Shown: piece by piece, positions 9,981 through 30,802 of the stretch
Layout: every line of letters starts with the position of its first letter
Position numbering within the stretch: the stretch's first letter is position 1
Virus record (IMG/VR): IMGVR_UViG_3300044616_001642
Location: 1-30,802 of that record
Length of the DNA stretch: 30,802 nucleotides
Direction: 5' to 3' (one strand)
Origin: a virus
Program-made: the position numbers and the translations under genes
The notes under the pieces: generated by a model
Told to the model about the DNA's origin: nothing
Seen by the model: the letters and a program-made list of their open reading frames with translations, nothing else
Databases searched by the model: none

Positions 9981-9996
9981 AATTTATTACCTATTA
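9981..9996 (-). promoter_or_regulatory. stop/ribosome-site overlap TAATAGG before the 89-aa gene
   Basis: The coding strand reads TAATAGG (9990-9996): the first three bases are the stop of the glycine-rich gene and TAGG is the Shine-Dalgarno-like core, 9 bases before the ATG at 9978-9980. The same TAATAGG string recurs before two other fibre genes. Confidence 0.5.
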
Positions 9997-10938
9997 AAAT
10001 GTGATAGAGCCTGTTGCTGTAAATTTGTATACGTTATAAGATCCGTCTGTTGTTATGATTGGAGAGCCCGTGGTTGATGAGGCAAGAACTAAAGAGCGAA
10101 TGATAACAACTCCGGAACCTCCTGCTCCTCCGTTATAGTACGCTCCGGTATAACTTCCTCCACCGCCACCACCGCCAGTATTATTTACCCCATCTTGACC
10201 AGTACTATTAATAACTGCATTGCCTCCTCCACCTAAACCGCCTGCTCCAACATAGCTACCATTAACTTCTCCACCTCCACCTCCACCACCATAGTAATTT
10301 CCATACCATAGTATTCCATTACCACCCTTACCGCTACCGGGACTATTGCCGCCATCCGAACCTGCTTGTCCAGCACCACCACCACCACCGGAACAGCCAC
10401 TCCAACTCCACGCCACAAAACCATTACCTCCACTATTTCCTTGACCAACAGTTCCTGATCCTCCAAATCTAAGAGGAATACCGCTGTTGGATTCGGTTAC
10501 GGCGCCTCCACTACCGCTACCTCCAGATACTCCATTGCCTGCGCCGTGAGATACTCCGCCACCACCACCAATTGCTGTTAATCCAAAAGCTGTTGTATTT
10601 TCTCCGTTGGTGCCGGGAGCAGCTCCATAATCTAAAATAGTACCACCTGCTCCTATCACAATATTATAAGTGTTTGGAGAAAAAAGATTCATTTGACCGG
10701 TCAAAACTCCTCCGGCTCCTCCTCCACTCCCTGTATTTGCTCCACTACCACCACCAGCTACAATTAAATATTCTATGGGAACAGCATCAATAAAACCCCC
10801 AGTATAAGGAACTATGCCGGTAGCTGGTGTTGAATAGGTTCCTGTTCCTATGGGATTAACTGCTGCTACTTGAAAAGAATATGATTGATTTGGTTCGTCA
10901 TTGATTAATCCAGTAATCATTTGAGTAATTTTAGCCAT
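9994..10938 (-). CDS. glycine-rich fibre-like protein starting with a partial FN3 domain, 314 aa
   Basis: Residues 1-46 are only the second half of a fibronectin III domain (GLINDEPNQSYSFQVAAVNP, then GTGTYSTPATG); the first half is the end of the preceding protein. From residue 55 it is a glycine-rich phage module: it opens with VEYLIVAGGGS-type sequence (here IEYLIVAGGGSGANTG), has long GGGG runs, contains YNIVIGAGG, and closes with VVIIRSLV and YNVYKFTATGSITF. Modules of this kind form polyglycine-II-like sandwiches in some phage adhesins and are common in aquatic phage fibres. Its start overlaps no neighbour; a 35-base spacer with TAATAGG precedes it. Probable distal fibre or adhesin subunit. 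Confidence 0.85.
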   Translation of the reverse strand: MAKITQMITGLINDEPNQSYSFQVAAVNPIGTGTYSTPATGIVPYTGGFIDAVPIEYLIVAGGGSGANTGSGGGAGGVLTGQMNLFSPNTYNIVIGAGGTILDYGAAPGTNGENTTAFGLTAIGGGGGVSHGAGNGVSGGSGSGGAVTESNSGIPLRFGGSGTVGQGNSGGNGFVAWSWSGCSGGGGGAGQAGSDGGNSPGSGKGGNGILWYGNYYGGGGGGGEVNGSYVGAGGLGGGGNAVINSTGQDGVNNTGGGGGGGSYTGAYYNGGAGGSGVVIIRSLVLASSTTGSPIITTDGSYNVYKFTATGSITF

Positions 10939-10973
10939 ATTATGTTATTTATTTCCTATTAGAGAGTTATAGA
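10939..10973 (-). promoter_or_regulatory. spacer between the two halves of a split FN3, with TAATAGG ribosome site
   Basis: This 35-base spacer separates the TGA of the 1299-residue gene from the next ATG. It contains TAATAGG at 10955-10961 on the coding strand, 16 bases before the ATG, and is otherwise A/T-rich. It lacks the GTGTAT element, so a new promoter here is unlikely. Confidence 0.5.
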
Positions 10974-13900
10974 TCAAGGATAATTTGTCCAAGTAGATCC
11001 TCCGTCTCTGGAGTATCTTACAGCATACGATAATGGTAATGATTGACCGTCACTAGCTGGACTATCCCAAGTTAAATATGCTCTGCCGTCTCCAGCAACC
11101 GCTGTTAGATTATTGATTGCTGATGGGGCAGTAGCCTCTGAAACATTAGGAGTAGCTGATATTGTGCTGGTATAACTTGTTGAACCAACACTATTAACTG
11201 CTTTCATTCTAAAGTAGTATGTTGTACCATTAGTTAATCCGTTTGATCCAGTAACATAAATACTACTATTAGAAAATGCTAGAGTGTTAGTAAAAGTTTC
11301 CCAATTAGTTTCATCTGTACTATATTCTATAGAGTATGTTGTACCAGATGGTAAACCTCCACTAAGTCCCTTAGTCCACGACAGAGCAACCAATCTATCT
11401 CCCGGATCAGCACTAAAATTAGTCATAAGTGTGGGGGCTGTGGCTGTGAAATCAATATAGAAATAACCATACTCTCCGTTTGTTTGGACAACAGAGTATG
11501 ATGATTCTGTAGAAGAAGAAGATCCATTACTGGTATTATATGGCCATAAATCTTGTACTAATGTGCGAAAATACACTCTTCCACTCAAATCTACTGTTGG
11601 TGTTAGATAAGTAACAGAATTCAGATTAGAGGCTGCGCTGTATCTAAAACCTATATTGCTTGATGAATTTGCGTCTGTCCATATTCCTTCAGACGGATTG
11701 AGAGAATATTGAAATCTTATGGCAGTGTCATTACCGGAGTACCAGCTATCGTCTGGTGGTGGACCCATACCCCAGCCTGAGTATGGATAAAGGTTAAATG
11801 TTTCATTTGCATTAGCATAATATCCTCTATAGTTAATACCATTTACAACTTCAGAGTTGTTATTTCTGTTCCCATCTGGATGTACTTCCATAGAGTAGTA
11901 AATAAAGCTCATATTTACTAATCTAACAGACTTGGTAACTACAGTTGAATATGCTGAAGTTATTATGCATCGTACAGCATCTTTTCCTGGAGGACTTTGC
12001 CATGTCCAATTGTTTACCGCATTAAATCCTTGACTATTAATAGTTAAGGTCGATCCTGTTGCGCCACTAATATTTTGCCAATTTCTTCCGTTCTCTCCAT
12101 TCCAATCATTGGCGTCGGTATCATATTTTTGCCACTGATATGATAGAGCAGAACTATCGGACATTGTTGCAGACACAGAGAACGTGGCGTTTTCGTTGAG
12201 TGCTAGTACTCTATCATTCTTTGGTTCTGAAGTTATTGTTAGTACTGGAGGAGGAGCTACTGTTACTGGTGAGCTTTCACTACTATAGTCTCCATATCCA
12301 CCACTATTTTGTCCACGAATGCGGAATACATAATTTTTATTATTGGGTATTCCTGTAACTTTGACATTTTTAAATTCTGAGCTTGGTAATACATCAATAC
12401 TGGCTCCTGTATATAGTGCTTCTCCGATGGTATATCTTAGTTCGTCCATTCGACCCAATACGTAATTATTAGCATAATGAGATCCAGAGTCTCCACCCAT
12501 AACTACTAATCCACCAGCAGAAAAATTATCATTATTAGTATCTGCTCTATCTACTACTTTATTTCCATTAACATAAATTCTTATAGTTCCATTTTGACGA
12601 CAAAATGCTAGATGTATGGGTTTTTTACTATAATTTCCTGGACCATTTTGGTCTGTATTTCCTCTTAAAATAGAACTACCTATATCAACATAATAAGCTG
12701 CTGATCCATTAACCATCTTAGTTAATCTAACGGTATAGTAATCCATTTTATTTATACCAAAATAAGAACCAGAAGAAGCATTATATGATCCAAATAGTCT
12801 GCCTATACTTGTTGAAGTATAGGGATCGTCTAGCATTAAAAACATTTCCAGAGTATAATCACCAGTTCCAGGATTCAGATCAGACGATTCATCCACCTTA
12901 ACAATATAAGGAGAAGTATAGTTTGTTCGATTATATTGTATGTCTAAGCATCCATCTCCAAACTTTTGATAGTTAGATGAGTTATCTCCACCTATAAAAG
13001 CAGGATTATTAGTAGTATTCCAAAGAACATTACGATTATACAATGAATAATCTTTAAGTTTGGCGTTGCCTCGAATGTCTCCCTTATTAAAATGTAATAA
13101 TAGTCTGGTAGGAGATGATGAAACCGGTGTCCATGATGGTTCAGCTAAATCTTCTGAGTATTGTAAGTCATATGATACTAATACGGACTTATCGCTTGCT
13201 GGAGAAACAAAAACAACTTCTGCAGAGGCATCTCCACCATAAACGGTTATGCTAGAGGGAGCTTCTGGAGCAGTAATTGTTGGTGCGACATCGGAATAAG
13301 GTAGTGCTGGTACGGAAAAGGTCGTTCCATCTGGATATCTACAAACTCCACGAGTTATGCGAACATCATCAAGATAACCATTAAAATAATCAGTGCTATT
13401 ATCAGCATATCGCCCAATTGATAGCGAACCGCCACCTATTGGTAATGTCCCGGTAAAGCTAGCTGTACTAACTTGTGATCCATTTTGGTATGTTCTAACA
13501 GTACTACCTTGTCTAACAACAGCATAATGAGTCCAAGCATTCTGGATCATGGAACCCATACTTAAGCTACTAACAGCCCAGTTAGCATAATCAACACTCA
13601 TATAAAGTTTAAGAGTGCCAGATTCATTATGTCCAAGCAACCAAGGATTATAACCCTGTCCTGTGCGTACCCTACACATAACAGACCCAGTACCCGAACC
13701 TAAACGATATTCCCAATATTCTATTGTAAAATCTTCATCACCAAAATCAAATCCTGGATGATCTGGTACTGTTAAATAGTCTCCACTACCATCAAAATAA
13801 ATACTACTACCACCAAACTTATTCTTAGCGATACTGAGTTTAGCATCTCCTTGAACAGTCCCAGTTTTTGGAAGATATGACGTATCGGTGATGGTTGTGC

Positions 13901-14873
13901 TATTATGTGCTCCATTAAAATGAAGTAATAACGAGGTACTATAAAAATATGGATCTGGATTAGTATCAACTGGAGGTACTGACGGCATAAGATCAGATTG
14001 AGATACATAATTTTGTACGCCGGTATAATTAATGGCTCCAACCCTAACACTATAGTTAGTTCCATTATCTAGTCCTGTTACACTAATAGCTGTAACAACA
14101 CTAGGAGAGTGAGGAAAATCAATCCAGTCAAAACCATTTGTTGAATGCTGAATAGAATAATCGGTAATAATACCTCCGTTATCCTCTGCTGGAGTATTCC
14201 ATATCATATTAATAGTGCGATCTAGTGGTCCAGCTACTAGATCGGTAGGAGCATTGGGTGGAGTTACAGGAGTTCCTGATGATGGGAATGGAGCATATAG
14301 TGTTTTAACATCAAAATTACTATTGTATTTTGCAGATCCTATTCCTTTAGTTATTCTAACTTCGTCTATATATCCATTAAATGTTTCACTTCCTGGATTA
14401 TATGCTCCAATATTTACCGCTCTGGATGAGCCTAGATTACTAGCGGCAGCAGAGCCAGAAATTGATAAAGATTCAGTTCCGTTAATATAAACTTTAATCG
14501 CTCCACTATTTCTAACTAAAGCTAAATGACTCCATGTATGTAATGGAACACTACTAGATCCCCAGTTCCAAGGAGTTCCATTAAACCATAATTGATTTCC
14601 TTCGGTACACATTCTCCATAATAGTCCGTCCATGTGTGTTCCAATGGAGATCAAGGTTCTATAGTCGTTGTTGTCTAGTGGATAAACCCACATCTCTATA
14701 GTAAAATCGCCTGTGCCAAAACCAAAATCCGTATGCTCAGGAATACTAGCATATTGATTTAATCCATTCAATAATAATGAAGCTCCACCGAAACGGCTTT
14801 TGAGAGTGCTAACTGATGCTCCATTATTTAATGTTACAGTTTTAGGTTTTGGTGACGAATCTATTATACTCAT
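10974..14873 (-). CDS. giant LamG/FN3/Ig mosaic fibre-like protein, 1299 aa
   Basis: Probable virion adhesin. Domain order: LamG 1-190, beginning part-way through the usual opening (MSIIDSSPKPKTV); FN3 205-297; LamG 312-520; first half of an FN3 535-587; a complete LamG 588-833 (opens TRLLLHFNKGD); second half of the same FN3 834-873 (VKVTGIPNNKNYVFRI); Ig-like 876-987 (SYQWQKYDTD); an unassigned beta-rich block 988-1145; FN3 1146-1243; and the first half of an FN3 1249-1299 ending STWTNYP. It therefore starts and ends inside domains whose missing parts are in neighbouring genes. LamG and FN3 domains point to carbohydrate or surface binding and spacing roles. No signal peptide. Confidence 0.88.
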   Translation of the reverse strand: MSIIDSSPKPKTVTLNNGASVSTLKSRFGGASLLLNGLNQYASIPEHTDFGFGTGDFTIEMWVYPLDNNDYRTLISIGTHMDGLLWRMCTEGNQLWFNGTPWNWGSSSVPLHTWSHLALVRNSGAIKVYINGTESLSISGSAAASNLGSSRAVNIGAYNPGSETFNGYIDEVRITKGIGSAKYNSNFDVKTLYAPFPSSGTPVTPPNAPTDLVAGPLDRTINMIWNTPAEDNGGIITDYSIQHSTNGFDWIDFPHSPSVVTAISVTGLDNGTNYSVRVGAINYTGVQNYVSQSDLMPSVPPVDTNPDPYFYSTSLLLHFNGAHNSTTITDTSYLPKTGTVQGDAKLSIAKNKFGGSSIYFDGSGDYLTVPDHPGFDFGDEDFTIEYWEYRLGSGTGSVMCRVRTGQGYNPWLLGHNESGTLKLYMSVDYANWAVSSLSMGSMIQNAWTHYAVVRQGSTVRTYQNGSQVSTASFTGTLPIGGGSLSIGRYADNSTDYFNGYLDDVRITRGVCRYPDGTTFSVPALPYSDVAPTITAPEAPSSITVYGGDASAEVVFVSPASDKSVLVSYDLQYSEDLAEPSWTPVSSSPTRLLLHFNKGDIRGNAKLKDYSLYNRNVLWNTTNNPAFIGGDNSSNYQKFGDGCLDIQYNRTNYTSPYIVKVDESSDLNPGTGDYTLEMFLMLDDPYTSTSIGRLFGSYNASSGSYFGINKMDYYTVRLTKMVNGSAAYYVDIGSSILRGNTDQNGPGNYSKKPIHLAFCRQNGTIRIYVNGNKVVDRADTNNDNFSAGGLVVMGGDSGSHYANNYVLGRMDELRYTIGEALYTGASIDVLPSSEFKNVKVTGIPNNKNYVFRIRGQNSGGYGDYSSESSPVTVAPPPVLTITSEPKNDRVLALNENATFSVSATMSDSSALSYQWQKYDTDANDWNGENGRNWQNISGATGSTLTINSQGFNAVNNWTWQSPPGKDAVRCIITSAYSTVVTKSVRLVNMSFIYYSMEVHPDGNRNNNSEVVNGINYRGYYANANETFNLYPYSGWGMGPPPDDSWYSGNDTAIRFQYSLNPSEGIWTDANSSSNIGFRYSAASNLNSVTYLTPTVDLSGRVYFRTLVQDLWPYNTSNGSSSSTESSYSVVQTNGEYGYFYIDFTATAPTLMTNFSADPGDRLVALSWTKGLSGGLPSGTTYSIEYSTDETNWETFTNTLAFSNSSIYVTGSNGLTNGTTYYFRMKAVNSVGSTSYTSTISATPNVSEATAPSAINNLTAVAGDGRAYLTWDSPASDGQSLPLSYAVRYSRDGGSTWTNYP
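12375..13112 (-). other. LamG domain inserted inside an FN3 domain (in the 1299-aa protein)
   Basis: Residues 588-833. The flanking sequences, YDLQYSEDLAEPSWTPVSS before and KNVKVTGIPNNKNYVFRI after, are the two halves of one FN3 domain. The LamG between them has normal start (LLLHFN) and end (MDELRYTIGEALYTG) signatures. The insertion point is the FN3 loop after the W...V strand. Confidence 0.75.
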
Positions 14874-14891
14874 TTTATTATTACCCTATTA
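14874..14891 (-). promoter_or_regulatory. double stop plus ribosome site splitting a LamG domain
   Basis: Coding strand: TAA at 14889-14891, then TAG, GGTAATAATAAA, and ATG at 14871-14873. TAATAGGG provides stop and Shine-Dalgarno core, 11 bases before the ATG. The two stops and the ATG are in one frame, and removing this 21-base unit joins LLLHLDSN to SIIDSSPKPK, a normal LamG opening. Confidence 0.7.
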
Positions 14892-17744
14892 GTTTGAATC
14901 TAAATGCAGTAGTAGTCTTGTCTTATTGTATGTATTATCTTGTCTAAGAGCTGTTAGGACTGACGATGTTGTTGAAACATAACTTCCTGTGCCAGCTATA
15001 TTTATTGCTGCTACCTGGAAAGAATAGCTAGTACCAACTAGTAATCCGCTAACCATAATAGATGTATCTATACTAGGAGTATGAGCATAGTTTGTCCATG
15101 TACTTTCACCATCAGACTTATACTGAACAGCATAATCTTTGATAGCTGAATTATTAGCTGTTGGTGCTGTCCAGTTGACATAAGCTCTATTGTCGTCTGT
15201 AATAACATTAAGATTAGATGGGGCGCCCAAGGTTGATATGACTGACGTTGTTGATGAACTATAGTCGCTTGATCCGATAGAATTAACTGATCTTGCTCTG
15301 AAAGAGTATGGAGTACCTAGAGTTGATAATCCTGTAACCCTATTAGCAGGAGCTTGGGGTAGCGTTCGTGGATCAAAATTGGATGTATATCTTGCTACTC
15401 CCTTAGTTACTCTAACATCATTCATGTTTCCATTAAAATATTCATTACCAGCAGGCCAACCACCCACATAAATTTTGCGGTTAGCAGTATAAAGAGTATC
15501 AGCAACAAAGCTTAATACTGAAATTCCATTTAAGTATAATGTTATTATTTTTCCATTACGCACAGCAGCAACATGGTTCCAAATGTTAACTAACGGTACT
15601 GATCCGCTCTCTTGTCCGCCTATTGTTCCTGGATAGAAACATAAAACACCACTATTTTGCCTTAGATATAATTGCCAGTCTCCATCTGTTCCTTCTCCTC
15701 CCCCGTTCCCTCTCTTACTAATAATAGTATTATATTTACTCCAATCTCCAGTAGGTTTTATCCAAGCTTCTATCGTCCAATCTTGATTGGTCAAATCAAA
15801 AACTGAATTATTTTGTATTACAAGATTATCGCTGGTTCCATCGAATACTACACTACCATTACCAAACCAGCTTTCAGACGATACTACTTTAACATTACCA
15901 ACCAAGCTTACATTATGATTATGTTTAGAATCATCAACAATAATAGTACTATTATTTGATCCTGTCATTGGTAGCAATAATGACACCTTGTCATAGTATG
16001 GATCTGATACTACACTAGTATTGTTCCATGTTGATCCGTCTTCAGAATACTGGAAGTTATAGGCTGTGATTGGTGAACGACCGTCGAATGTTGGAGGAGT
16101 TAGCGACACTTTGAAGACATTATCTCTTTCAGTAACTGCTAAACCAGATGGACTACTCGGAGCAATAGGACCTAATCCTAAATTGGGTGCAGGAGCAGCT
16201 GGTTTGGTGAAGCTAGCTGGATATCTTGCTGTTCCTTTGGTTATTCTAAGATCGTCTATGTACCCCTGATAAGTATTGGTTACAGAACCAGACGATGATC
16301 GACTTGCTCCTATTGTTATTCCATTAGAGTTTACTCTGCTAATGTTGTCGTTAATAGCAGTCGATGATCCTATTTCATTTCCGTCTAAAAATAGTTTTAA
16401 GTTATTGTTATTTCTGGTTGCAGCTAAGTGATACCATGTGCCAGAAGCTAGCGGTGGAGTTACACTTTTTTCTATTACTGTACTATTACCATTACGAAAT
16501 TGTATCACTGAATTATCTACTGTACAACCAAGAATTTCTTTTCTAGTATAAGCAAATGCTCCACCCTGAGCGCCACCCTGCCAATTAGTAAATTTAATCA
16601 GCCAATTACGATTGGTGGGAACATGTTTCATCACCATCTCAAGACCAACAATATTATTAGGATTTCTACCAGCATTATTTAAAGCAGTTAACCAATCATA
16701 ATATGATCTGGTTGCGTAATTACATATATTAGACCATCCTTCACCGTTCCAAGAAGTATTAGCTGGAGAAGAATATCTGACATAAGATCCTTCCGAAGCA
16801 CTATTATATATACCATTCTGATTAGCTCTTGTGAGTTCCAACACTCCAGGAATAATAGGATCTACTTCGGTTCCATAATTGGTTGCTGTAAAACTAACTT
16901 CTGGTCCATAAGAAGGAGTTCCTCCAACAGGAGACCCAACCATTAATCTCCATCCACCATCAGCTCCATCATAATTACCAACAATACTTCTAGTATTACT
17001 AACAGTATCAGGATTAATCCAAGCTTCTACTGTAAAGTCATCAGTACCAAGTTGCCATGCTTTATCTCCTGGAACGCTCAAATAAGAGCTACCATTAAAG
17101 TAAGCACTAGAATCACCAAATTGTTTAATATTTTGATTTGTACTTACGTAATTATTATTGACTACTCTTTTAGGGGATCTTGAAAGGTCTTTAAAGGCTC
17201 CTTCGGTAACTAAACTAGCATCATTAAAAGGAAGACTAAAATTAGAAGTGTACCTACAAATTCCTTTAGTAATTCTTAGTCCATCTATATTACAGTCAAC
17301 CGGATGGCTTCCGGTCTCACTATTACCAATAGCGATACCATGACTAACATTATTAAATATAGCATCTCCATTACTCCATGATGCTGTTTGAACCCCATTA
17401 GAGAATGTTCTAAATGTGGAACCAGAACGTGTGACCGCAATATGATACCATTTGTTTAAAGAGACATTGTTAATGATATTCTGACCTGATGATACTTGCC
17501 AACCGCTACCATTGCTAGAAGCATAAAATGTTACTTTTGATCCGTCTTGAGTATAGATCAAAAAAGAGTCTGAACCAGATGCTGGCCATCCTTTTGTCAA
17601 TACCGATTTAGCATCAGACCAGCTATTAAATTTTACCCAAAACTCTATAGTAAAATCCCCAGATCCAAAATTAAAATCTTCACTATAAGGAATATATAAG
17701 TATCCATCACTATTTACTTTTAGATTAGTTAACAAAGAAGACAT
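14889..17744 (-). CDS. giant LamG/FN3 fibre-like protein, 951 aa
   Basis: Probable virion adhesin. LamG 10-165 (FNFGSGDFTIEFWVKF, WYHIAVTRSG, IDGLRITKGICRYTSNF), which starts without the usual LLLHF opening. LamG 185-510, itself interrupted at about 281-403 by a different domain (TNYGTEVD, NGIYNSASEGSY, GGAQGGAFAYTR). Half FN3 528-578 (ITAYNFQYSEDGSTWNNTS), nested LamG 580-797, remaining FN3 half 798-838. Complete FN3 840-930. Residues 940-951 (KTRLLLHLDSN) are the opening strand of another LamG that continues in the next gene. AAAAGG precedes the ATG. The module plan is the same as in the 1299-residue neighbour, and both likely belong to one fibre. Confidence 0.88.
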   Translation of the reverse strand: MSSLLTNLKVNSDGYLYIPYSEDFNFGSGDFTIEFWVKFNSWSDAKSVLTKGWPASGSDSFLIYTQDGSKVTFYASSNGSGWQVSSGQNIINNVSLNKWYHIAVTRSGSTFRTFSNGVQTASWSNGDAIFNNVSHGIAIGNSETGSHPVDCNIDGLRITKGICRYTSNFSLPFNDASLVTEGAFKDLSRSPKRVVNNNYVSTNQNIKQFGDSSAYFNGSSYLSVPGDKAWQLGTDDFTVEAWINPDTVSNTRSIVGNYDGADGGWRLMVGSPVGGTPSYGPEVSFTATNYGTEVDPIIPGVLELTRANQNGIYNSASEGSYVRYSSPANTSWNGEGWSNICNYATRSYYDWLTALNNAGRNPNNIVGLEMVMKHVPTNRNWLIKFTNWQGGAQGGAFAYTRKEILGCTVDNSVIQFRNGNSTVIEKSVTPPLASGTWYHLAATRNNNNLKLFLDGNEIGSSTAINDNISRVNSNGITIGASRSSSGSVTNTYQGYIDDLRITKGTARYPASFTKPAAPAPNLGLGPIAPSSPSGLAVTERDNVFKVSLTPPTFDGRSPITAYNFQYSEDGSTWNNTSVVSDPYYDKVSLLLPMTGSNNSTIIVDDSKHNHNVSLVGNVKVVSSESWFGNGSVVFDGTSDNLVIQNNSVFDLTNQDWTIEAWIKPTGDWSKYNTIISKRGNGGGEGTDGDWQLYLRQNSGVLCFYPGTIGGQESGSVPLVNIWNHVAAVRNGKIITLYLNGISVLSFVADTLYTANRKIYVGGWPAGNEYFNGNMNDVRVTKGVARYTSNFDPRTLPQAPANRVTGLSTLGTPYSFRARSVNSIGSSDYSSSTTSVISTLGAPSNLNVITDDNRAYVNWTAPTANNSAIKDYAVQYKSDGESTWTNYAHTPSIDTSIMVSGLLVGTSYSFQVAAINIAGTGSYVSTTSSVLTALRQDNTYNKTRLLLHLDSN
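15354..16007 (-). other. LamG domain inserted inside an FN3 domain (in the 951-aa protein)
   Basis: Residues 580-797, from DPYYDKVSLLLPMTG to NDVRVTKGVARYTSNF, interrupt an FN3 whose halves are FQYSEDGSTWNNTSVV and NRVTGLSTLGTPYSFRARSV. It is the same insertion site as in the 1299-residue protein. Confidence 0.75.
16536..16904 (-). other. foreign beta-domain inserted inside a LamG domain
   Basis: Residues about 281-403 of the 951-residue protein. The LamG text WRLMVGSPVGGT before it and VIQFRNGNSTVIEKS, WYHLAATR after it are ordinary LamG. The inserted block has its own conserved look (YGTEVDPIIPGVLELTR, NGIYNSASEGSY, GLEMVMKHV, GGAQGGAFAYTR). From memory, similar sequence appears in cyanophage structural proteins as a separate domain; a profile search is needed. 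Confidence 0.6.
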
Positions 17745-17757
17745 TTAATATTTCCTT

Positions 17758-18138
17758 TTATTGTTGTGGCTGTTGTGGAACTTCAATAACAACCCATGAC
17801 TTTGACTCTTCATTCCAAGTATAAAATTTATCATCATTAGGATAATCTACTGGGGCTTTCCATTGACAGGTATTTTCGTCCAAAGTCCATGAAGCAAAAG
17901 GCTGTGGTGAAATAAAAGCGTCCAAGGTCTCATTATAACTATACCCTATACCAGCATAATTTTTCCTAATTTTACCACTATATGATGTTTGTTTCCATCT
18001 ATTGTGGCCAAACAAAGAGTTCAAAAACTCTACACCTTTATTTTCGTTCTCAACTCCATTATCTAATAGTTCATTATTATTAACTACTACTACTTGAGTT
18101 ACTACATTATTAGAATCTAATTCAGCAAAATGAGCCAT
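17758..18138 (-). CDS. cyanophage-type conserved MAHF protein, 126 aa
   Basis: Matches, by recall, a conserved hypothetical family widespread in cyanophages and related aquatic phages: starts MAHFAELDSNNVVTQVVVV, carries KTSYSGKIRKNYAGIGY-type sequence (here QTSYSGKIRKNYAGIGYSY), then AFISPQPFASWTLDENTC, APVDYPNDDKFYTWNEESKS and a W-V-x-x ending. It is probably a small structural protein or fibre accessory; the function is unknown. It has a strong ribosome site, AAGGAG, before the ATG. It interrupts the fibre array between the 1093- and 951-residue genes, 11 bases after one and 13 before the other. The C-terminal PQQPQQ tail is low-complexity. One of the better organism clues in the window. 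Confidence 0.85.
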   Translation of the reverse strand: MAHFAELDSNNVVTQVVVVNNNELLDNGVENENKGVEFLNSLFGHNRWKQTSYSGKIRKNYAGIGYSYNETLDAFISPQPFASWTLDENTCQWKAPVDYPNDDKFYTWNEESKSWVVIEVPQQPQQ

Positions 18139-18149
18139 TATTTTCTCCT

Positions 18150-22638: not shown

Positions 22639-22698
22639 AATAATTATATCTCTAAAATGTTGGTAGATAACAAATCATACACCTTAATCTTAATACTC
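22639..22698 (-). promoter_or_regulatory. intergenic region with candidate promoter element AAGGTGTATGATT
   Basis: Coding-strand GGTGTAT at 22677-22683, 39 bases before the ATG of the 385-residue gene. An AGAG weak ribosome site sits near the ATG. No hairpin with a T tract is visible. Confidence 0.4.
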
Positions 22699-25293
22699 CT
22701 AACAAGTGTCTGCTTTTATAATTCCTATTTGATCTTCTGATTCTTTGATCTCTTTTTCGGCCATACCTATTACTTCATCTAATACTAATCCATAGCCATT
22801 TTTTTTATTAATAGCATTTTCAATTTCATTTTCATCTGGATCAGGTATTAGGCTAATTACACACGTTATTATATTAATATTTCCTTCTTTACCCGCACAA
22901 TTAGCTGATTGTCCACATATATTTACGGTTTGATCATTACAGGGATAGGTGTCGTCATTACACACCGACCTATAAACAGGAATACAAAAATTACAAGGAT
23001 CATCTTTTTTAATTATTTCAATTGTGTAATCTGTTGAGTTTTTCCAATATTCATGAGGAAATCCATTTAATAAAGTCTTACTATCAGATAGTTCTTTATA
23101 TGTTTGTTCATTTTTTTCTATTTTTATTCTTTTTATATATGCAACTATAGACTTACCTTCTTTTGGAGATCCTACTAAAGTTTGAACATAAGCAAAAGCA
23201 TCTTCGGGTTTTAAAAACGTGCTTATTCCGTTTATTATTGTGTTGCATGGGCGAAGTTTTTCTGTTAGTGAGCATTCCAGTATAGAGTAAGTCTTGTCCG
23301 ACTCAAGATTACATACTTTTATTAATGTGTCTGGGGAGTCAAAATCATTAAATGCTCTGCCACCAATATCACATCTAATATCTCTTTGTTTGGGTGTGGA
23401 CAGCTCATAAATTATAGTTTCCTCATGACCGCACATTTTTACATTACTGGGCTCTTTTTTCCAATTACCGTCTGATGGCTTTGATAGCTCGTTTGCTCCG
23501 TCTAGACATGAGCCTGTTACAGAATCAGCAAAATCAAAACAAATACCATAAGGTCCTTCTATTGGTTTAATATCAAAATCTGATTTGTCTGACATGGTAT
23601 ATGAATATTTTGTTGCTATTATCCCATTGTCTATCTGAACAAGAGGCTGAGGGTAAAGTTTTGGTGGAGGATTTTGTAATGTGCATTCACAATTAGCGCC
23701 AGGAGGTCCATAATGTTCAAAGACTTTCCAAAATACTCCTTGTTCGCTGTGATCTAAATATACTCCTATATTTCCAGCTGTTAGTGCTCCACCAGTAGAG
23801 GTACATGTACAATCATACTCGGGTGTATACTTTATTTCTTGAATATTATGTTTTTCATCAAGTTTATAGTATTCAAGACTATTATTGTTTCCATCATGAC
23901 ATTTTACTATTGGTTTAAATTCTTGTATTCTATATTTTAATTCTAGCCCGGTTTTATATGTTGTATATACCCATGGATAATATGTCCCAGGCGTACTCAC
24001 TACAGATACTCCTTTAGCACTTATAATGCCATTACTTACGTTTTGATAACATGCATCCTGAGACTGGCTCCAAATCATTGTTAGTCCTTCTGGTGTTGGT
24101 TCTACATCAATTGGTATGCCTTCTCTTCTAGTACTAAATACGGTAGTGATACCCTTTTTAAAAGTAACAGTTGGTCCTCCAGCATTACCTCTTCCTGTTG
24201 TTGTTGAAATAAAAGGTCCCTCGTCTACAACCGTTTTAATCTTGTTGGTCGGCCTGGTCCAATTTAAATCACAGCATTCTGTTGGGCTGTTTGGGAATAT
24301 ATTTGTTTGATTAGGCTTAGCGTCACACATTACATCACCACCCTCACAACACCACTCACACTTTTCTTTACGAACCAAAATACCTTCAGGTAAATCTGGA
24401 CCATTATTTTTACCGTTTTCTATAATGTATGTATAGTTCCATCCTAATGTTTTTCTATTTTCTTTTGGAACTGTCTCCAGAAAACCAATTGTAGACTGAG
24501 CGCAGCCACAGTTATCTATGGTATAATTTCCGTTATTGTTTGTTACACATCTTTCATATCTAAATTGAGCACATGGTGCCATATGTTTTATTATTTTTTT
24601 AGTATATTTTGGTTCTGATTCTGTTAATATAAAACTTTGGGTATTTATTTCAGAATTAATGGTTGGTTCTGGAATACTTTCTGATGGACTTAGTATTATG
24701 CTTTGTCCATTAATACTATCGCTAGTATCTTCTAATGCATTTATTGATTGTCCACTAAGAACTTCTGCTGCACTGTTGTCGTCTATGGTGTCGTCATACT
24801 TTGAAGCTTCATTAACAATACTATCTAAATTTTCTATGTCTATGGCAGCAACATCATTATTGGCCAATATAGTTTTTTCATCAATTTTACTATTGCTTAT
24901 ATCGTTTTGTATTGACATTGATACTGCTTGATTAGACGAGATTAAAATTTCACCAAACTGTGTTGTTATATTATCTCCTGCTTCTGTTAGTAATATATTT
25001 TCTAAATCTATAAGAGCTACTTTTACTTTATACGTATTATTAAAAAAATTCTTACTAATATTTGAAATTTCCAGAGTATCCAAATCTTGTCCTATTTGGT
25101 AATATGTTTGTCCTCCATCACGAGACTCATACCAAGTATAACTAAAAAAATAAGTAGATGCATTACTATACTCTGCTGTAAGATTTTGCATATTAACTTG
25201 AGCTTTAAAAACAACATTGTCTCCCTCTATGGGCAGCTCAGGATTTTGTGTAATAGATACTATTATGTCATTGTCAAATATGAAATTACTCAT
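22699..25293 (-). CDS. cysteine-rich virion-type protein with N-terminal Ig-like domain, 864 aa
   Basis: Residues about 8-115 form an Ig-like domain (TQNPELPIEGDNVVFKAQV, FSYTWYESRDGGQTYYQIG, TLEISNISKNFFNNTYKVKV); its opening also completes the last strand of the preceding protein. Residues 115-235 are acidic and Ser/Ile-rich, probably disordered. The rest, 236-864, is an unrecognised region with about 31 cysteines in pairs such as CEWCC, CTC, CEC, CNFC and a final C-terminal Cys, but no known zinc-finger or EGF pattern. Near the end, an amphipathic helix (820-850, EIENAINKK, EVIGMAEKEIKESEDQ) may mediate oligomer contacts. Location in the fibre array suggests a structural role. The ATG lies one base after the previous stop. 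Confidence 0.75.
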   Translation of the reverse strand: MSNFIFDNDIIVSITQNPELPIEGDNVVFKAQVNMQNLTAEYSNASTYFFSYTWYESRDGGQTYYQIGQDLDTLEISNISKNFFNNTYKVKVALIDLENILLTEAGDNITTQFGEILISSNQAVSMSIQNDISNSKIDEKTILANNDVAAIDIENLDSIVNEASKYDDTIDDNSAAEVLSGQSINALEDTSDSINGQSIILSPSESIPEPTINSEINTQSFILTESEPKYTKKIIKHMAPCAQFRYERCVTNNNGNYTIDNCGCAQSTIGFLETVPKENRKTLGWNYTYIIENGKNNGPDLPEGILVRKEKCEWCCEGGDVMCDAKPNQTNIFPNSPTECCDLNWTRPTNKIKTVVDEGPFISTTTGRGNAGGPTVTFKKGITTVFSTRREGIPIDVEPTPEGLTMIWSQSQDACYQNVSNGIISAKGVSVVSTPGTYYPWVYTTYKTGLELKYRIQEFKPIVKCHDGNNNSLEYYKLDEKHNIQEIKYTPEYDCTCTSTGGALTAGNIGVYLDHSEQGVFWKVFEHYGPPGANCECTLQNPPPKLYPQPLVQIDNGIIATKYSYTMSDKSDFDIKPIEGPYGICFDFADSVTGSCLDGANELSKPSDGNWKKEPSNVKMCGHEETIIYELSTPKQRDIRCDIGGRAFNDFDSPDTLIKVCNLESDKTYSILECSLTEKLRPCNTIINGISTFLKPEDAFAYVQTLVGSPKEGKSIVAYIKRIKIEKNEQTYKELSDSKTLLNGFPHEYWKNSTDYTIEIIKKDDPCNFCIPVYRSVCNDDTYPCNDQTVNICGQSANCAGKEGNINIITCVISLIPDPDENEIENAINKKNGYGLVLDEVIGMAEKEIKESEDQIGIIKADTC

Positions 25294-25294
25294 T

Positions 25295-28200
25295 TTATTG
25301 ATAAACCGTAATTGTGGATATGGAATCAGTGATTAATACTTGATATTTATAATTAGGATAAAAGTTTTTAATTATATTGTTAACTTTTATAGAGCTGGTA
25401 TTTGTTGCTATATTAGTATATGTTTTTCCTCCATCTTTTGATTGTTTCCATTGATATGATAGATTACCAGCTGATGAGCTTGCATTAATTGATAGATCAA
25501 TATTAGCATATTCTGTGGTTCCAATTTTTGTATAACTAACAAGGGAGCTAATAGGAAACGCTCGTATAGATGGTAAAAATTTTAGTTGCGCAGGTTCGCT
25601 GGCTAATCGTACTTTATTAACGGTTAATATAACTCTATAATAGTAATTTTTTGAAGCTGAAGTTAAATTACTTAAAAACAAAGCTCTACTATTAGCATTC
25701 GGTATGTTTGTATAAGTTTTATTATTTGCTGATTTTTGCCATTGGTAATTTATTACTGGATTTGCTGAAAGAGGATCTGTAGCTGTGGCTTGAACATCAA
25801 AAACTGCTGATGTAGTGTCTGTGGATACAGATAAGGGCTGAGATAATATGGAGATAGTTGATAAAACAGTTAATTTAACTCCATTAGTGGTTATGCTAGA
25901 GCCGTTATCTCTCAAAACCACTCTGTAATAGGTTTGGTCGTCAACATATGATGAAATATTCAATTCTAATGTATTAGCTGTGGCTTGTGGGATATTTGTG
26001 TATATCCCATTTTTTTTGTTCGATTTTTGCCACTGATATTTTAAAATTCCATTATTAGAAGTTGCCTGTATAGAGAAAATAGCTTTTTTGTTATTAGCAA
26101 TTTGCTCTATTGGATAACTTGAAACAATTATACTAGGAACTACAGTTAAAGAGCATGTTTTGCTGTATTTTGTTGTAGCGTCTTTTGATTCCGCCGAGAG
26201 TCTGAATAAAGTATTATTATCTGCAAGTGCTGGAGTTTTGATGGTCAAAGTATTTGTAGACGTACCAGAATATTTGTTGCCGTCGCTTAAATTTTGAAAT
26301 GCATTATTAGAAATACTATATTGCCATCTATATGTAACAGGAGAATTGATGGAGCTTCTAGCAGAACCATCCATAGATACTGCAACATTCGGTGTTGTTG
26401 ATCTGTTTCCTGGATTGGTCACAAAATAAAGAATATTAGAATTATAGTATTTATCATCTGGTTTTAATCCTCTCAATAATTTAGAAAGATTTTTCCAGAA
26501 CGGGTCGTTCATAGAAATCTCTTCTGTAATATTTAGTATTTGAGAAGAACTATCTGCTGCCGTTACAGCATCAGTTAGCATTTGTCTAGTAATTCCAAAA
26601 GGTTTCATTACTAAACCAAATCCGTCTTTTTGTGATCCTGTTAATCCTTTCCATACGGCGTATTTTAGATTAGATGGATTTTTTTTATTTTCTATTAAGG
26701 ATTTTAGTATCCAATAAAGAGCACCACCTATTCTAATTGTTCCTGGATATTGTACGCTGTTTGTCCATTTAGTATATACGTTTCTATAGGGGTTGTTTCG
26801 CCATGTGCTTATTCCATATATTATATCTAGCATATTTCCAACATTTATATTTCTAAATGATGTTTTTACACATTGTTCGCTATGATAGAAAATGATGGAT
26901 CCTGGCTTTGCTGTTCTGATACGTGTTTCATACGATTCTCTATTTGACACAAATATAAAATCTGATTCTACTCCAGCATTTATAGTTTCATCGTTAATAT
27001 TTTTAACATATCTTGTTGGAGAATTTCTGGTTTGTATGGACACGGCAACAACCGGCAGTACGTCAGAAAGTGTCTTAAATTTGCCCGAAGCTATCTTACG
27101 AACAATTGGTTCCGCAGTAAGTAGTCCTCCTCCTTGTTGTACAAAATTTTTAATAGAATTTTCCATCTTAATAGAAATATCTATAGTGCTGCGCATTTTT
27201 GAGTCACTTTGTAATACAATAACGTCTGTAGATGGTAATGTTGTAAGATTTGCTCCATTTACTATATTAATAGTTTTATTTGTAATAGAAGATAGTGTAT
27301 TTTTAATTTGATTATCGTTATTGCTACTCCCACAACTTATAATTAAAATATCAGGATTAGTTTTATTTTTACACAGCCATTTGATGCTGTTTTTAATGAT
27401 CTTACTATAGTTTATATTGGTTAAATTTTTAGCATCAATAGGAGTGGACATAGAAATACATCTACCATTGATATAATTCCATCCTGTTACACCGGCTACT
27501 GTGCAATTTCCTAAAGATAATGCTGTTGATGGTACAGGGGTTGACGGTGCCTCAAATATAGTAGAACTAAGTAGTTTTTCTTCGTTATTTTTCATAACCC
27601 ATACATCATCAACTGCTGCTGGTCCGCTACTGGATGTTGGTGTTTGAAATCTATTTTTATAGATCGCTTTATATGAGTCTCCAGCTTTGTATTGCATATA
27701 AAAATATACTATGGGTTCTATATTTTTATTGTCATCCAAACTAGCGAGTGAACCTTTACTAGATGCTAATTTTAAATGAGGATCTCCCCATAAATAAGTG
27801 TTTTTATTTAGTTCATTAAAGTACGGTAGTTCTACTGATGTGTATAGGGTGGCACTATTGCTTGTTGTACTAGATGTAGCTGACGATATCACAACTCTAT
27901 ATTTAAATAAGTTTTTAGATTCAAAATCATTAATGTCTGTTGTATATAAAATATTATTGTCAATTGATGAAATATTTTTAAAATTATATCCATCTGCAGA
28001 TTCTTGCCACTGATAAGATAATAAGCTATTAGAATCTGTAATTACTTTAAAAACCTCTACTTGTTCCGAGCCTATACTTATGTGGGCATTGATTGGCTGT
28101 AGTATAATATTAATAGGATTAATGTTTACATTCAACGTAGCCATATTGCTGTATACTGTTATGGGTAATCTGTTATTAAAAAATGATACAATTTTAATAC

Positions 28201-28618
28201 GATACTGATCCCCATTATTGTCGTCATTTATATTATTTATAACTAGAGAAGTATTTGTTGCTCCAGAAATGGGAATAAAAGTTTGAGGAGATGCTCTATT
28301 TGCGACTTCCCATTGATAAGCAGTATTTGCTCCAGTGCTAATGTCTGCTATGATAGAAAAATTAGCTGTATTGCTAGTATCGGTGTCTATTGTTTGATCA
28401 TATGGATGTTGTGTAATATTGACTGTTGGAAAAACTATTAATTCGGCCGAAAGCGACGTTACTGATGCCGAACCAGAGGTTGCTATAACTCTATATCTAT
28501 ATGAATGCTGAGAAGCGTCTATATTTGTTAATGATAAAGACGGATTACTGGGAGCTCCAGTAAGGTCCTTGAATGTTGTTCCTCTGTCTGTTGATACTTG
28601 CCATTTATAATTAATCAT
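25295..28618 (-). CDS. multi-Ig fibre-like protein with a central GATase-like domain, 1107 aa
   Basis: Residues 1-64 are the second half of an Ig-like domain (INYKWQVSTDRGTTFKDLTG). Ig-like repeats follow at 65-164 and 167-262 (SYQWQESADGYNFKNIS). Residues 263-740 are a unique region; within it 420-505 reads as a Rossmann-type strand-helix pattern (PDILIISCGSSNND, STDVIVLQSDSKMR, IKNFVQQGGGLLTAEPIV) like class I glutamine-amidotransferase/ThuA folds. No catalytic Cys-His-Glu set can be assigned. Further Ig-like repeats lie at about 741-828, 829-918, 919-1015 and 1016-1107. The last lacks its final strand, supplied by the next gene. No Shine-Dalgarno precedes the ATG, and no GTGTAT-independent signal is visible. 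Confidence 0.8.
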   Translation of the reverse strand: MINYKWQVSTDRGTTFKDLTGAPSNPSLSLTNIDASQHSYRYRVIATSGSASVTSLSAELIVFPTVNITQHPYDQTIDTDTSNTANFSIIADISTGANTAYQWEVANRASPQTFIPISGATNTSLVINNINDDNNGDQYRIKIVSFFNNRLPITVYSNMATLNVNINPINIILQPINAHISIGSEQVEVFKVITDSNSLLSYQWQESADGYNFKNISSIDNNILYTTDINDFESKNLFKYRVVISSATSSTTSNSATLYTSVELPYFNELNKNTYLWGDPHLKLASSKGSLASLDDNKNIEPIVYFYMQYKAGDSYKAIYKNRFQTPTSSSGPAAVDDVWVMKNNEEKLLSSTIFEAPSTPVPSTALSLGNCTVAGVTGWNYINGRCISMSTPIDAKNLTNINYSKIIKNSIKWLCKNKTNPDILIISCGSSNNDNQIKNTLSSITNKTINIVNGANLTTLPSTDVIVLQSDSKMRSTIDISIKMENSIKNFVQQGGGLLTAEPIVRKIASGKFKTLSDVLPVVAVSIQTRNSPTRYVKNINDETINAGVESDFIFVSNRESYETRIRTAKPGSIIFYHSEQCVKTSFRNINVGNMLDIIYGISTWRNNPYRNVYTKWTNSVQYPGTIRIGGALYWILKSLIENKKNPSNLKYAVWKGLTGSQKDGFGLVMKPFGITRQMLTDAVTAADSSSQILNITEEISMNDPFWKNLSKLLRGLKPDDKYYNSNILYFVTNPGNRSTTPNVAVSMDGSARSSINSPVTYRWQYSISNNAFQNLSDGNKYSGTSTNTLTIKTPALADNNTLFRLSAESKDATTKYSKTCSLTVVPSIIVSSYPIEQIANNKKAIFSIQATSNNGILKYQWQKSNKKNGIYTNIPQATANTLELNISSYVDDQTYYRVVLRDNGSSITTNGVKLTVLSTISILSQPLSVSTDTTSAVFDVQATATDPLSANPVINYQWQKSANNKTYTNIPNANSRALFLSNLTSASKNYYYRVILTVNKVRLASEPAQLKFLPSIRAFPISSLVSYTKIGTTEYANIDLSINASSSAGNLSYQWKQSKDGGKTYTNIATNTSSIKVNNIIKNFYPNYKYQVLITDSISTITVYQ

Positions 28619-28675
28619 ATTTTTAGATTATTTTGGATAACCGGAAAGGAGAGTTACAATGTAATACACTAAAAT
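28619..28675 (-). promoter_or_regulatory. intergenic region with candidate promoter element TAGTGTATTAC
   Basis: Coding-strand AGTGTAT at 28664-28670, 46 bases before the ATG of the 1107-residue gene. The gap separates two halves of an Ig domain. The upstream TAA and the downstream ATG are in the same frame, with a further in-frame TAA between them. No ribosome site is evident before the ATG. Confidence 0.35.
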
Positions 28676-30802
28676 TTAGCCTGATGTGCGAGTTGGTGTT
28701 GGAGTTCTTGTTGGTATAGCTGTTCTGGTCGGGGTTGGTGTAGCCGTGGTCGTAGCAGTGGGTGTTGGCGTTGGAAATACTATGTCAAGACCTATAGAAA
28801 AAGTTGCTGTATTATTATTACTTATAATTTGGTCTGTTGGTTGGTTTACGATCACTAGAGAAGACCCCAAAACACTTAGTCTTGCTGGATTGCTGGTTAC
28901 AGAACCTTGTGGACTCGTAAGATTTACTCTATAATATACATTATTATCTAGTGTTGTTAAATCACTTAAAATTAAATAAGAATTATTAGAGTTGACAATA
29001 GTATTCCAATCTACTTGGTTTGTAGATTTTTGCCATGAATATATCACGTTTGATGGCCCACCGACTACATCAAATATGGCTACTCCATCCCCTTCTGGTT
29101 GCTGGACAATGGTTATGTTGGACGGTCCCGTTGTGATGAAGGGAGGTAAGGGGGACTGAGTGGGCGTTGATGTGGGTGTTCTGGTAAGAGTTGGAGTTAT
29201 TGTTGGTGTGGGTGTTGCGCTTTTAGTTGGTGTGGGCGTGGAAGTTTTTGTTGCTGTTGGTGTAGGTGTTGGCGTTACGTTAATACTGTTTAATAAAAGA
29301 ATTTTATTGGGACTATTACCAACAGAGATAGTATTGATTAATGATCCTGTGTTTACAGAATAACTATAAACACAAGAAGAATCTGTATCTATTACATAAA
29401 AATATAAACCACTATCTGTAACAGCTATTTTTGTGGTTAGTGTCGATGGTAAATAGACTGTATTTTTAATATTGTTTGTTCCGGTGTCTATGACATTAAC
29501 AAAACCAGACTGTGATGACAATGCATATGCATCTCCATTTTGTCTATTAATTGCAATATCCGTAATATCAGAATTATTGTTGACTGTAGCCATGAGGACT
29601 GGGACAGATCCTGCTATGTCATATATCCTGATACTATTATTTTGTAAACCTAAATATAAACTACGATCTTCAATATTTAAAATACCGCAAACATAATTAG
29701 ATGACAAATTTAAATTATAGGTCAGGGCTGTCCAGTTAGCTGAGGCATATTGTGTCGAGTTGGAGGGTAGTGTTATTATAGCTACGCTATTTACATCAAA
29801 TACATATATTTTTTCGGATATTCCATCATACCCATAAGAAATTTTTTGATTATTTGATCCAATAGGTATTGTGGTGATAACATTTTGGTTAGCAATATTT
29901 ACAATGGAAACAGAGGTTGAAGTTAAACTAAATGCAATACTCTCATTTGTATTAAAAACAAAATCGATAACATTAGTAGCTAAGTTAATGGTAGTCTTTG
30001 CGTATGTAGAGGTATTTATAACTGATAATGTTGATGAATTTTCTGAAATAACATATACTGCAGATTTATTACTGTTTGTAATCAGATTTATAGGTTTAGA
30101 TATTCCTGTGATCGTATTTAATAGTTTTTGGGTTATAGTATGTACTATACTAATACTATCTGATCCATAATTTGCTACATATGCTCTAGAAATTGTTGGA
30201 TCGGTGGGTGTCGGTGTCGTTGTTGGTGTCGATGTTTTTGTTGGTGTATTTGTTGGTGTGCTAGATCTTGTGGGTGTGGCAGTTGCGGTTGGGCTTCTAG
30301 TCTGTGTTGGAGTTACTGTTCGTGTAGGAGTAATAGTCGGAGTATTAGTGGAAGTTGCTGTTGGTGTTGGAGGAATAACATTTGAACAACTACAATCGTT
30401 AGACCCTATGCATACGTTATCAATTACCGGACCATAGCATCCGCAAGACGTACAAGTGCTTTCAAATTTTACAACAGAGGAGGATGATGAAGCTGTGAAT
30501 GTTATTGATCCGTATTGCCAACCCATCTTATTATAATCTGGACCTACTAGATTAGAATAGTATTGCATGTAAGGGCGTATATCAAAAGAATAATCTTGTG
30601 CTATAAAGTTGCTGTTAGTAATAGTTACTCTAAATGTTTTATGTGGTACATTATTACTACTAGTAGAATAATTATTCCCTGAGTAATTGAATTGTAGTGT
30701 ATATGTTTTGTTTGGAATTGTTGAAATTGTTTGAGAGATATAGCCTGGAGAACAAGAATTAAGATCTATACAATAGTGTTCTGGTAATGTTCCAAATTGC
30801 CA
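28676..30802 (-). CDS. fibre-like protein with choice-of-anchor-C/DUF642-like domain, YVTN propeller and Ig (5' end beyond window)
   Basis: The frame is open to the right edge: 78 codons precede the first ATG at 30566-30568, so the gene starts outside the window and 708 residues are visible. In visible numbering: 1-133 is a DUF642/choice-of-anchor-C-like beta-sandwich (CIDLNSCSPGYISQTISTIP, KMGWQYGSITFTA, GPVIDNVCIG); 144-203 a Pro/Thr linker; 204-505 a beta-propeller of seven YVTN-like blades (RAYVANYGSDSISIV, AVYVISENSSTLSVINTSTY); 506-554 a Pro/Thr linker; 555-645 Ig-like; 646-676 the first half of another Ig; 677-708 a Pro/Thr tail, then TAA. Likely a virion adhesin that binds host surface material. 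Confidence 0.82.
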   Translation of the reverse strand, partial: WQFGTLPEHYCIDLNSCSPGYISQTISTIPNKTYTLQFNYSGNNYSTSSNNVPHKTFRVTITNSNFIAQDYSFDIRPYMQYYSNLVGPDYNKMGWQYGSITFTASSSSSVVKFESTCTSCGCYGPVIDNVCIGSNDCSCSNVIPPTPTATSTNTPTITPTRTVTPTQTRSPTATATPTRSSTPTNTPTKTSTPTTTPTPTDPTISRAYVANYGSDSISIVHTITQKLLNTITGISKPINLITNSNKSAVYVISENSSTLSVINTSTYAKTTINLATNVIDFVFNTNESIAFSLTSTSVSIVNIANQNVITTIPIGSNNQKISYGYDGISEKIYVFDVNSVAIITLPSNSTQYASANWTALTYNLNLSSNYVCGILNIEDRSLYLGLQNNSIRIYDIAGSVPVLMATVNNNSDITDIAINRQNGDAYALSSQSGFVNVIDTGTNNIKNTVYLPSTLTTKIAVTDSGLYFYVIDTDSSCVYSYSVNTGSLINTISVGNSPNKILLLNSINVTPTPTPTATKTSTPTPTKSATPTPTITPTLTRTPTSTPTQSPLPPFITTGPSNITIVQQPEGDGVAIFDVVGGPSNVIYSWQKSTNQVDWNTIVNSNNSYLILSDLTTLDNNVYYRVNLTSPQGSVTSNPARLSVLGSSLVIVNQPTDQIISNNNTATFSIGLDIVFPTPTPTATTTATPTPTRTAIPTRTPTPTRTSG
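28679..28774 (-). repeat. Pro/Thr-coding low-complexity repeat at a gene end
   Basis: Codes the last 32 residues of the propeller protein (variants of PTPTRT). It interrupts an Ig domain just before the stop codon. Confidence 0.8.
29141..29287 (-). repeat. Pro/Thr-coding low-complexity repeat (49 codons)
   Basis: Linker between the seven-bladed propeller and the following Ig domain (PTPTPTATKTSTPTPTKS type). Confidence 0.8.
30194..30373 (-). repeat. Pro/Thr-coding low-complexity repeat (60 codons)
   Basis: Linker between the anchor-C/DUF642-like domain and the propeller (TPTITPTRTVTPTQTRSP type). Confidence 0.85.

Follow-up and report, generated by a model that had tools for sequence, protein, structure and literature searches.

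In chaperone-usher pili, a neighbouring subunit completes the beta-sandwich of the one beside it by donor-strand complementation, and this sets an ordered polymer. The long tail fibre of the T-even phages is an ordered, non-covalent assembly of several gene products, whose joints are, to our knowledge, not known as shared split domains. FN3 domains have been split by engineering, for which Dutta et al. in 2005 is reportedly the cited source. In the accessible part of one report, two fragments of an FN3 engineered with a CD-loop cut assemble into the folded domain without being ligated, and melt at about 45°C against 78°C for the unsplit domain (PMC11666773). The DNA polymerase III catalytic subunit of some jumbo phages is split over genes and is thought by the authors to reconstitute, as far as the portion of that paper available states (PMC7824862); a paper on split phage genes concerns, in its available part, inteins and introns (PMC3322345). 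The present analysis concerns a chain of fibre genes of a giant phage that has not been cultured, in the virus record IMGVR_UViG_3300044616_001642, in which consecutive proteins carry complementary pieces of a single Ig, FN3 or LamG domain.

The window, meaning the whole stretch of DNA analysed, was the 30,802 bases of this record. Its fibre genes lie on the minus strand throughout and the proteins were named A to K in order of transcription. The same phage was present as a 237,915-base contig (L001/L002, handle G001; hereafter G1), which gave no mismatches and one gap over 29,826 bases compared. Gene D of the window (21481-22638) is without 14 residues, QPVVFTIPNETIQY, found in G1 (11977-13176); the difference is 42 bases, in frame, and the sequences otherwise match. 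A relative at about 70% DNA identity was available as a 140-kb contig (L003, handle G002; hereafter G2); its aligned stretches were 67-78% identical, apart from one of 54 bases at 87%. A further locus, L004, was 87% identical in DNA to the window phage across 10.7 kb.

Where the domains are cut

Custom profiles were built for FN3 (92 positions), LamG (217 positions) and Ig (93 positions) from intact domains in the loci collected. Pfam matches in the fibre proteins were to Laminin_G_3, fn3 and Gly_rich_2, and Ig was seen via the custom profile. Repeated LamG, FN3, Ig and glycine-rich domains, the composition of modular phage fibre proteins, were present.

At four joints a domain stopped on one gene and was resumed on the next. 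The Ig at A/B stopped at profile position 26 and resumed at 33 (2-26 / 33-92), the FN3 at D/E stopped at 40 and resumed at 46 (1-40 / 46-91) and the FN3 at H/I stopped at 46 and resumed at 57 (2-46 / 57-90). At G/H, strand 1 of a LamG was located at the end of G and positions 36-203 on H. Joined halves gave one near-complete match each: 63.9 bits over 2-92 for A/B, 71.2 bits over 1-91 for D/E and 62.5 bits over 2-90 for H/I. The joined LamG of G/H scored 162.4 bits over 15-203, with the H part alone at 149.7 bits. Both FN3 cuts fell in loops, the CD loop at D/E and the DE loop at H/I (loop names assigned by hand). On comparison with 22 intact FN3 domains, eight of the nine invariant or near-invariant columns were present across the two halves at D/E (hand count); the ninth, a Trp, coincides with the start codon of E.

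A sequence-only reading of this DNA had listed five boundaries that cut through domains, each with a protein ending inside a domain and the next beginning with the remainder. Four of these stand. At the fifth, B/C, the last Ig of B reaches position 83 of 93 and the tip of the final strand alone is missing; on profile coverage this boundary is a marginal case, not a true split. The next genes do resume the remainder, but A and D do not end inside the domain: A extends past its half Ig by a 33-residue Thr/Pro tail, and D past its half FN3 by a Thr/Pro linker and about 100 amino acids. Gaps between the genes at A/B, B/C, D/E, G/H and H/I were 1-57 nucleotides, and introns were set aside as a cause because the gaps are this short.

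A sixth joint, in which E and G would share a LamG with gene F between them, is likely, but weak as judged from profile scores. When two isolated LamG pieces of E were added to the LamG at the start of G, coverage was restored to 15-203 in the window phage, where the score rose from 123.1 to 142.6 bits, and to 15-202 in G2, where it rose from 134.1 to 160.1 bits.

Read-through structure models were made with both halves on one chain, on the basis of aligned intact domains taken from the window and the other loci collected. The A/B model (mean predicted local distance difference test score, pLDDT, 81.3; predicted template modelling score, pTM, 0.67) contained one whole Ig despite a spacer of about 50 residues. 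The half blocks were mostly at pLDDT 89-98 and spacer residues 60-72 below 50, and 85 of 85 residues were aligned to the single-domain Ig 3bfo_A (Z 12.4, root-mean-square deviation 1.9). The G/H model (mean pLDDT 82.4, pTM 0.84) was one concanavalin-type sandwich in which the G tail forms strand 17-24; its best match was 5ho2 (Z 22.0, root-mean-square deviation 2.4, 190 residues). As modelled, the A/B and G/H halves fit together as one domain, which does not imply binding of separate chains.

The cuts in related phages

All five junctions were found letter for letter in G1, and H/I also in L102 and L004, which are separate contigs. G2 keeps the halves at all four joints, A/B, D/E, G/H and H/I. 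In L004 H/I is unchanged, and the H/I halves, identical in DNA between the window and L004, carry little information. The G/H gap is 15 nucleotides in both the window phage and G2, and holds TAA TAG, then the motif AGGG and an ATG. Four distant loci, L134, L135, L142 and L165, also have the Ig cut: the upstream gene stops at Ig profile position 26 in all four, and the downstream gene starts at position 32 in three of three (L134, L135, L165), with the same start seen in L142 shortly before its contig ends. In this group the first gene closes with ...GAE and a TAA that shares one base with the following ATG, from which a protein beginning MSINYQWQ is read. In L134 and L135 B is about 25% identical to that of the window, and in L165 the best stretch reaches 26%; among L134, L135 and L165 themselves B is 59-91% identical. 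When B was searched in 32 clade and distant records, six matched: G032, G033 and G035 over a long stretch, G034 cut at its contig end, and G010 and G023 with weaker Ig-type stretches.

The homologous site in the clade was located in 33 loci via a neighbouring gene of 132 amino acids. L100-L102 are the window phage itself, and the cluster is also present in L004 and L122 (G2). For 25 of the remaining 28 loci no FN3, LamG or Ig match was obtained in the stretch examined, an absence that is partial at about eight of the 28, where less than 8 kb lies upstream of the marker; the last three (L109, L112, L128) have other such domains at this site. The phage collection yielded no close cultured relative: the 190 records found for protein G were all below 60% identity with none covering 80%, and none of the nine found for protein B covers 80%. 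No fused orthologue with both halves on one chain was found in a G/H read-through scan (133 relatives, 79 loci kept), nor in scans with B alignments and with E. These scans are pattern-based, and the G/H scan returned G1 but missed the known relative G2; the absence of fused orthologues is consequently weak and leaves the direction of change unproven.

The content of the cut loops changes between phages. At A/B the window has the 33-residue Thr/Pro tail plus 57 nucleotides, G2 a longer Thr/Pro stretch, a further C-terminal region and 5 nucleotides, and the distant group the overlap only. At D/E the window has the Thr/Pro linker, about 100 amino acids and 49 nucleotides, and G2 a shorter tail and four genes. 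Two of these genes, L003:711-2179 and L003:2268-3125, have a guanine-plus-cytosine (GC) content of 71% and 59% in surroundings of about 40%, and adjoin an integrase-family-like gene (31.5% GC, match just below the family cut-off); by composition, the high-GC genes between D and E look horizontally acquired. At H/I the window and L004 have 35 nucleotides; G2 has another half FN3 with a C-terminal region and a stop, and then a 631-amino-acid gene that starts with a half FN3. This insert brings half FN3s on both sides, so that the halves remain balanced. G/H is the exception, with its constant gap. Whole LamG domains also sit inside FN3 domains of G and H, and the G homologue of G2 (L003:7499-11056) has a complete LamG inside another LamG, which the window copy is without; the edges of this insertion show no clear signature by eye. 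Changing loop content and domains inside domains are together the main ground for an origin by module insertion. At a larger scale, K (window 7938-9710) and D have an N-terminal domain in common (32% identity, E 2e-13), which is also a lone gene of 155 amino acids in L134 (26% identity, E 2e-6). The flanking copies in D and K and the single version in L134 suggest that the block from E to J was inserted between two copies of an anchor gene.

Nonsynonymous (dN) and synonymous (dS) substitution rates were compared between the window phage and G2 unless stated. Values for the half FN3s were dN 0.067 and dS 1.87 on E, 0.178 and 0.70 on D, 0.227 and 1.02 on H, and 0.145 with saturated dS on I; those for the half Igs were 0.379 and 1.71 on A and 0.432 and 2.59 on B. 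Whole FN3s of E, G and H gave dN of 0.18-0.38, the two of E being at 0.36 and 0.38. The last 16 codons of G had nine synonymous and no nonsynonymous differences. By these counts constraint is most evident in the half FN3 of E and at the end of G. The half FN3 of I is 72% identical over 40 residues; from residue 60 of I, 201 of 255 residues are alignable at 24% identity with dN 1.2, a divergence that arises because the downstream part in G2 is another protein. Between L134 and L165, dN and dS were 0.107 and 0.53 for the half Ig of A, against 0.123 and 0.86 for a whole Ig; L134 and L135 are too close for dN/dS to tell.

Gene starts were surveyed for genes whose first domain lies no more than 20 amino acids from the start, counting ends identical over 120 amino acids once and leaving out G1/G2 duplicates (L001-L003, L100-L102, L122, L132, L133, L166). 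Mid-domain starts outnumbered whole-domain ones by 9 to 3 in G1, G2 and L004 (among 22 domain proteins whose start is closed) and by 3 to 0 in four distant relatives (8 domain proteins); in the other surveyed loci (134 domain proteins) there were 5 against 35. For 12:3 against 5:35 the Fisher p was 4.5e-6, a value inflated by the non-independence of relatives. The threshold omits the start of H, which is without strand 1 alone, and the ends of A, D and G, making the count conservative. C-terminal ends that are half against whole numbered 2 vs 6 in G1, G2 and L004, 4 vs 0 in the distant four and 2 vs 96 in the others, where both half ends come from L050. The five mid-domain starts in other loci comprised a circular permutation (L109), a similar case (L112), a frameshift-like case (L050) and two that are unexplained (L035, L198). 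The L109 gene (L109:3647-6931), from a related phage, starts in mid-LamG and has the missing first part later in the same protein, so the LamG is circularly permuted; with its pieces reordered it scored 114.7 vs 103.6 bits. L112:3084-6635 also starts in mid-LamG and by eye appears circularly permuted like L109. Five other clade genomes, two of them partial, had 14 domain proteins (one with an open start) and a single mid-domain start by eye, the L109 gene. A control with bacterial loci was uninformative: of 24 domain proteins none had a domain within 20 amino acids of the start.

Proposed docking and its rivals

From the complementary cut positions, their conservation, the substitution rates, the differing loop contents and the models, we favour with moderate confidence the reading that consecutive subunits dock by completing one beta-sandwich between them, and that exchangeable cargo is accommodated in the cut loop as in a slot. 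A-B, D-E, G-H and H-I would be separate polypeptides, each pair carrying complementary pieces of one beta-sandwich, and E-G would probably dock likewise. Each shared domain would be a joint that specifies the successor subunit, giving the chains A-B and D-E-G-H-I. With cuts in inter-strand loops, the shared domain could close and the tail of the upstream chain exit through the loop, which would hold a Thr/Pro linker plus terminal domain, extra modules or even whole genes. The cuts likely originated by insertion, into domain loops of long fibre proteins, of modules that brought a stop, a start and the intergenic stretch between them. We infer docking of the separate chains, an order of the fibre set by it, this insertion origin and the presence of the proteins in virions. 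A fuller picture, quite possible but put forward tentatively, is an ordered relay of chains: a different shared beta-sandwich would form each joint, with a side branch projecting from an evolvable slot, so that linkers, domains or nested subunits bracketed by half domains could be exchanged and the backbone left untouched.

Several observations weigh against docking. The half FN3 of H evolves no more slowly than the whole FN3 of H (dN 0.227 vs 0.208), and the half Igs of A and B (0.379, 0.432) do not clearly differ from the whole Igs beside them (0.299 and 0.617). Between L134 and L165 the half Ig of B had dN 0.257 at dS 0.99, with the next Ig at 0.184 and 3.04. As dS is near saturation at most joints, these ratios are rough. 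Independent lineages are few: L134, L135, L142 and L165 are mutually related, which leaves three for A/B and two for each of the other joints. Four genes separate the D and E halves in G2, and at H/I of G2 the profile sums (130.6 and 131.8 bits) make nested and crossed pairing indistinguishable. The missing part of the L109 LamG lies on the same chain, so a mid-domain start need not imply docking. L035:9260-10090 and L198:7416-8663 start inside a LamG (profile 58 and 53) without explanation; both are unrelated phage genes. The models, being of one chain and built on an alignment of whole domains, partly assume the answer.

The halves might instead be evolutionary scars, in which recombination or module insertion cut the domains and unpaired halves persist passively as appendages. 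The region is prone to rearrangement, as the LamG inside a LamG in G2 but not in the window illustrates; a high-GC block by an integrase-like gene lies between D and E in G2, and most clade loci are without such domains at the site in the stretch examined. Passive persistence is nevertheless unlikely, for the halves stay open in frame and keep dN below dS in a relative whose DNA is about 70% identical, phages with a B protein of about 25% identity still have the Ig cut, and the half of I was kept although the rest of I was replaced. Decay of a modular gene, which the sequence-only reading had offered, is disfavoured on the same grounds. Relatives carrying one half alone, which that reading had named as a refuting case, were not seen at the joints in G2, L004 (H/I) or L134, L135 and L165 (A/B), and its view that the cuts are too frequent for accident agrees with the mid-domain starts, 12:3 in this phage group and the four distant relatives vs 5:35 elsewhere. 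Its giant ancestral gene cut by insertions is partly supported: the same loops hold inserted domains, and at H/I of G2 a whole gene follows a block that closes with a stop, but no fused orthologue was found in the pattern-based scans. Docking into an ordered fibre, also among its proposals, would be the best-supported functional reading, two read-through models folding as a whole domain.

Copies of one fibre protein could also swap or permute domains among themselves as a homo-oligomer, with no docking between neighbours in gene order. Circular permutation does occur within one chain in L109, and by eye in L112, yet at the four joints the pieces are on different consecutive genes, in order, and no protein has both; we regard this explanation as quite improbable. 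Recoding, by which frameshift, readthrough or ribosome bypass would yield a continuous fibre protein, is very unlikely. G and H are indeed in frame across the 15 nucleotides in the window and G2, but two consecutive stops stand there, ahead of the AGGG motif and ATG. Stop-to-start distances, computed by hand from coordinates, were 60, 8 and 2 nucleotides at A/B and 4, -1 and -1 nucleotides at B/C in the window, G2 and L134, so that no constant frame relation holds: the window differs in frame, and G2 and L134 agree. The D and E halves are also separated by an extra region and, in G2, by whole genes. Assembly or sequencing error, a concern with a metagenomic virus record, is hardly credible given the exact recurrence of the junctions in G1, and of H/I in L102 and L004, and the same cuts in diverged relatives.

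Coordinates, consequences and known systems

Coordinates of the genes and domain pieces are given in Table 1. Near the fibre block, window 3214-3942, 4016-4471 and 4444-6636 include a PhoH-like protein and a ribonucleotide reductase of the B12-dependent type, and the gene between these two is dUTPase-like by eye. G1 81201-100883 and G2 32301-49502 are single open frames of 6,560 and 5,733 amino acids; these are possible candidates for tape-measure proteins, which would mean very long tails.

Table 1. Positions in the window of fibre genes A to I and of the domain pieces at and near their joints.
Feature	Position	Strand	Remark
Gene A	28676-30802	-	
Gene B	25295-28618	-	
Gene C	22699-25293	-	
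Gene D	21481-22638	-	
Gene E	18150-21431	-	
Gene F	17758-18138	-	126 amino acids, phrog_7759; between E pieces and G
Gene G	14889-17744	-	
Gene H	10974-14873	-	
Gene I	9994-10938	-	
A: Ig first part, profile 2-26	28778-28864	-	Then 33-residue Thr/Pro tail
B start: remainder of A's Ig, profile 33-92	28430-28615	-	Same start region in G2, L134, L135, L165
B/C boundary	25293-25297	-	Last Ig of B 16-83 of 93; marginal
D: FN3 first part, profile 1-40	21934-22053	-	Cut in CD loop
D: Thr/Pro linker and C-terminal region of about 100 amino acids (slot content)	21484-21933	-	Content differs in G2
E start: FN3 remainder, profile 46-91	21288-21428	-	
E: isolated LamG strand-1 piece, profile 15-33	21213-21278	-	Weak, 9.9 bits alone; possible G partner
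E: isolated LamG piece, profile 36-58	20436-20519	-	Weak, 3.3 bits alone; possible G partner
G start: inside LamG, profile 67-203	17223-17741	-	
G: internal FN3 first part (2-46), whole LamG interrupts	16017-16148	-	
G: internal FN3 remainder (56-89)	15237-15344	-	
G C terminus: LamG strand 1 DNTYNKTRLLLHLDSN	14892-14939	-	16/16 residues identical in G2
H start: remainder of G's LamG (36-203)	14298-14870	-	
H: internal FN3 first part (1-50), whole LamG interrupts	13110-13259	-	
H: internal FN3 remainder (53-89)	12264-12374	-	
H C terminus: FN3 first part (2-46)	10977-11126	-	Cut in DE loop
I start: FN3 remainder (57-90)	10807-10935	-	

If the halves dock, shared domains would specify subunit order, and the fibre could branch at a joint, allowing host-binding parts to be swapped with the backbone kept. 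The joints would then be natural, evolved split pairs of FN3, Ig and LamG with orthologous sets, usable as non-covalent connectors. No description of consecutive phage fibre proteins sharing split domains was found in the full-text literature searched, mostly without subscription papers.

The locus uses the same domain families as modular phage fibre proteins with LamG, FN3, Ig and glycine-rich domains; in modular fibres of the other surveyed loci, mid-domain starts (5 vs 35) and ends (2 vs 96) are rare. The T-even long tail fibre offers the likeness of an ordered, non-covalent fibre of several subunits. With the split jumbo-phage polymerase the likeness is that parts of one protein are on separate genes; that system is an enzyme and not a fibre, and the available part of its description mentions no exchangeable material at the cut (PMC7824862). 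The engineered split FN3 is also cut in a loop, with D/E in the CD loop as in the accessible part of that report (PMC11666773), whereas the cuts described here are at natural gene ends and occur also in the DE loop (H/I), in Ig and in LamG. In donor-strand complementation neighbours complete a beta-sandwich, as is proposed here, and G would give H one strand; at these joints, however, as much as roughly half a domain would be shared, and the joints, made from several domain types, differ from one another. Nor is the strand at G/H an N-terminal extension of the next subunit, as the donor strand of those pili is, but the C terminus of the preceding chain. Subunits that share domains are known in principle, and domain-splitting of consecutive phage fibre genes would, on this comparison, be the new part.

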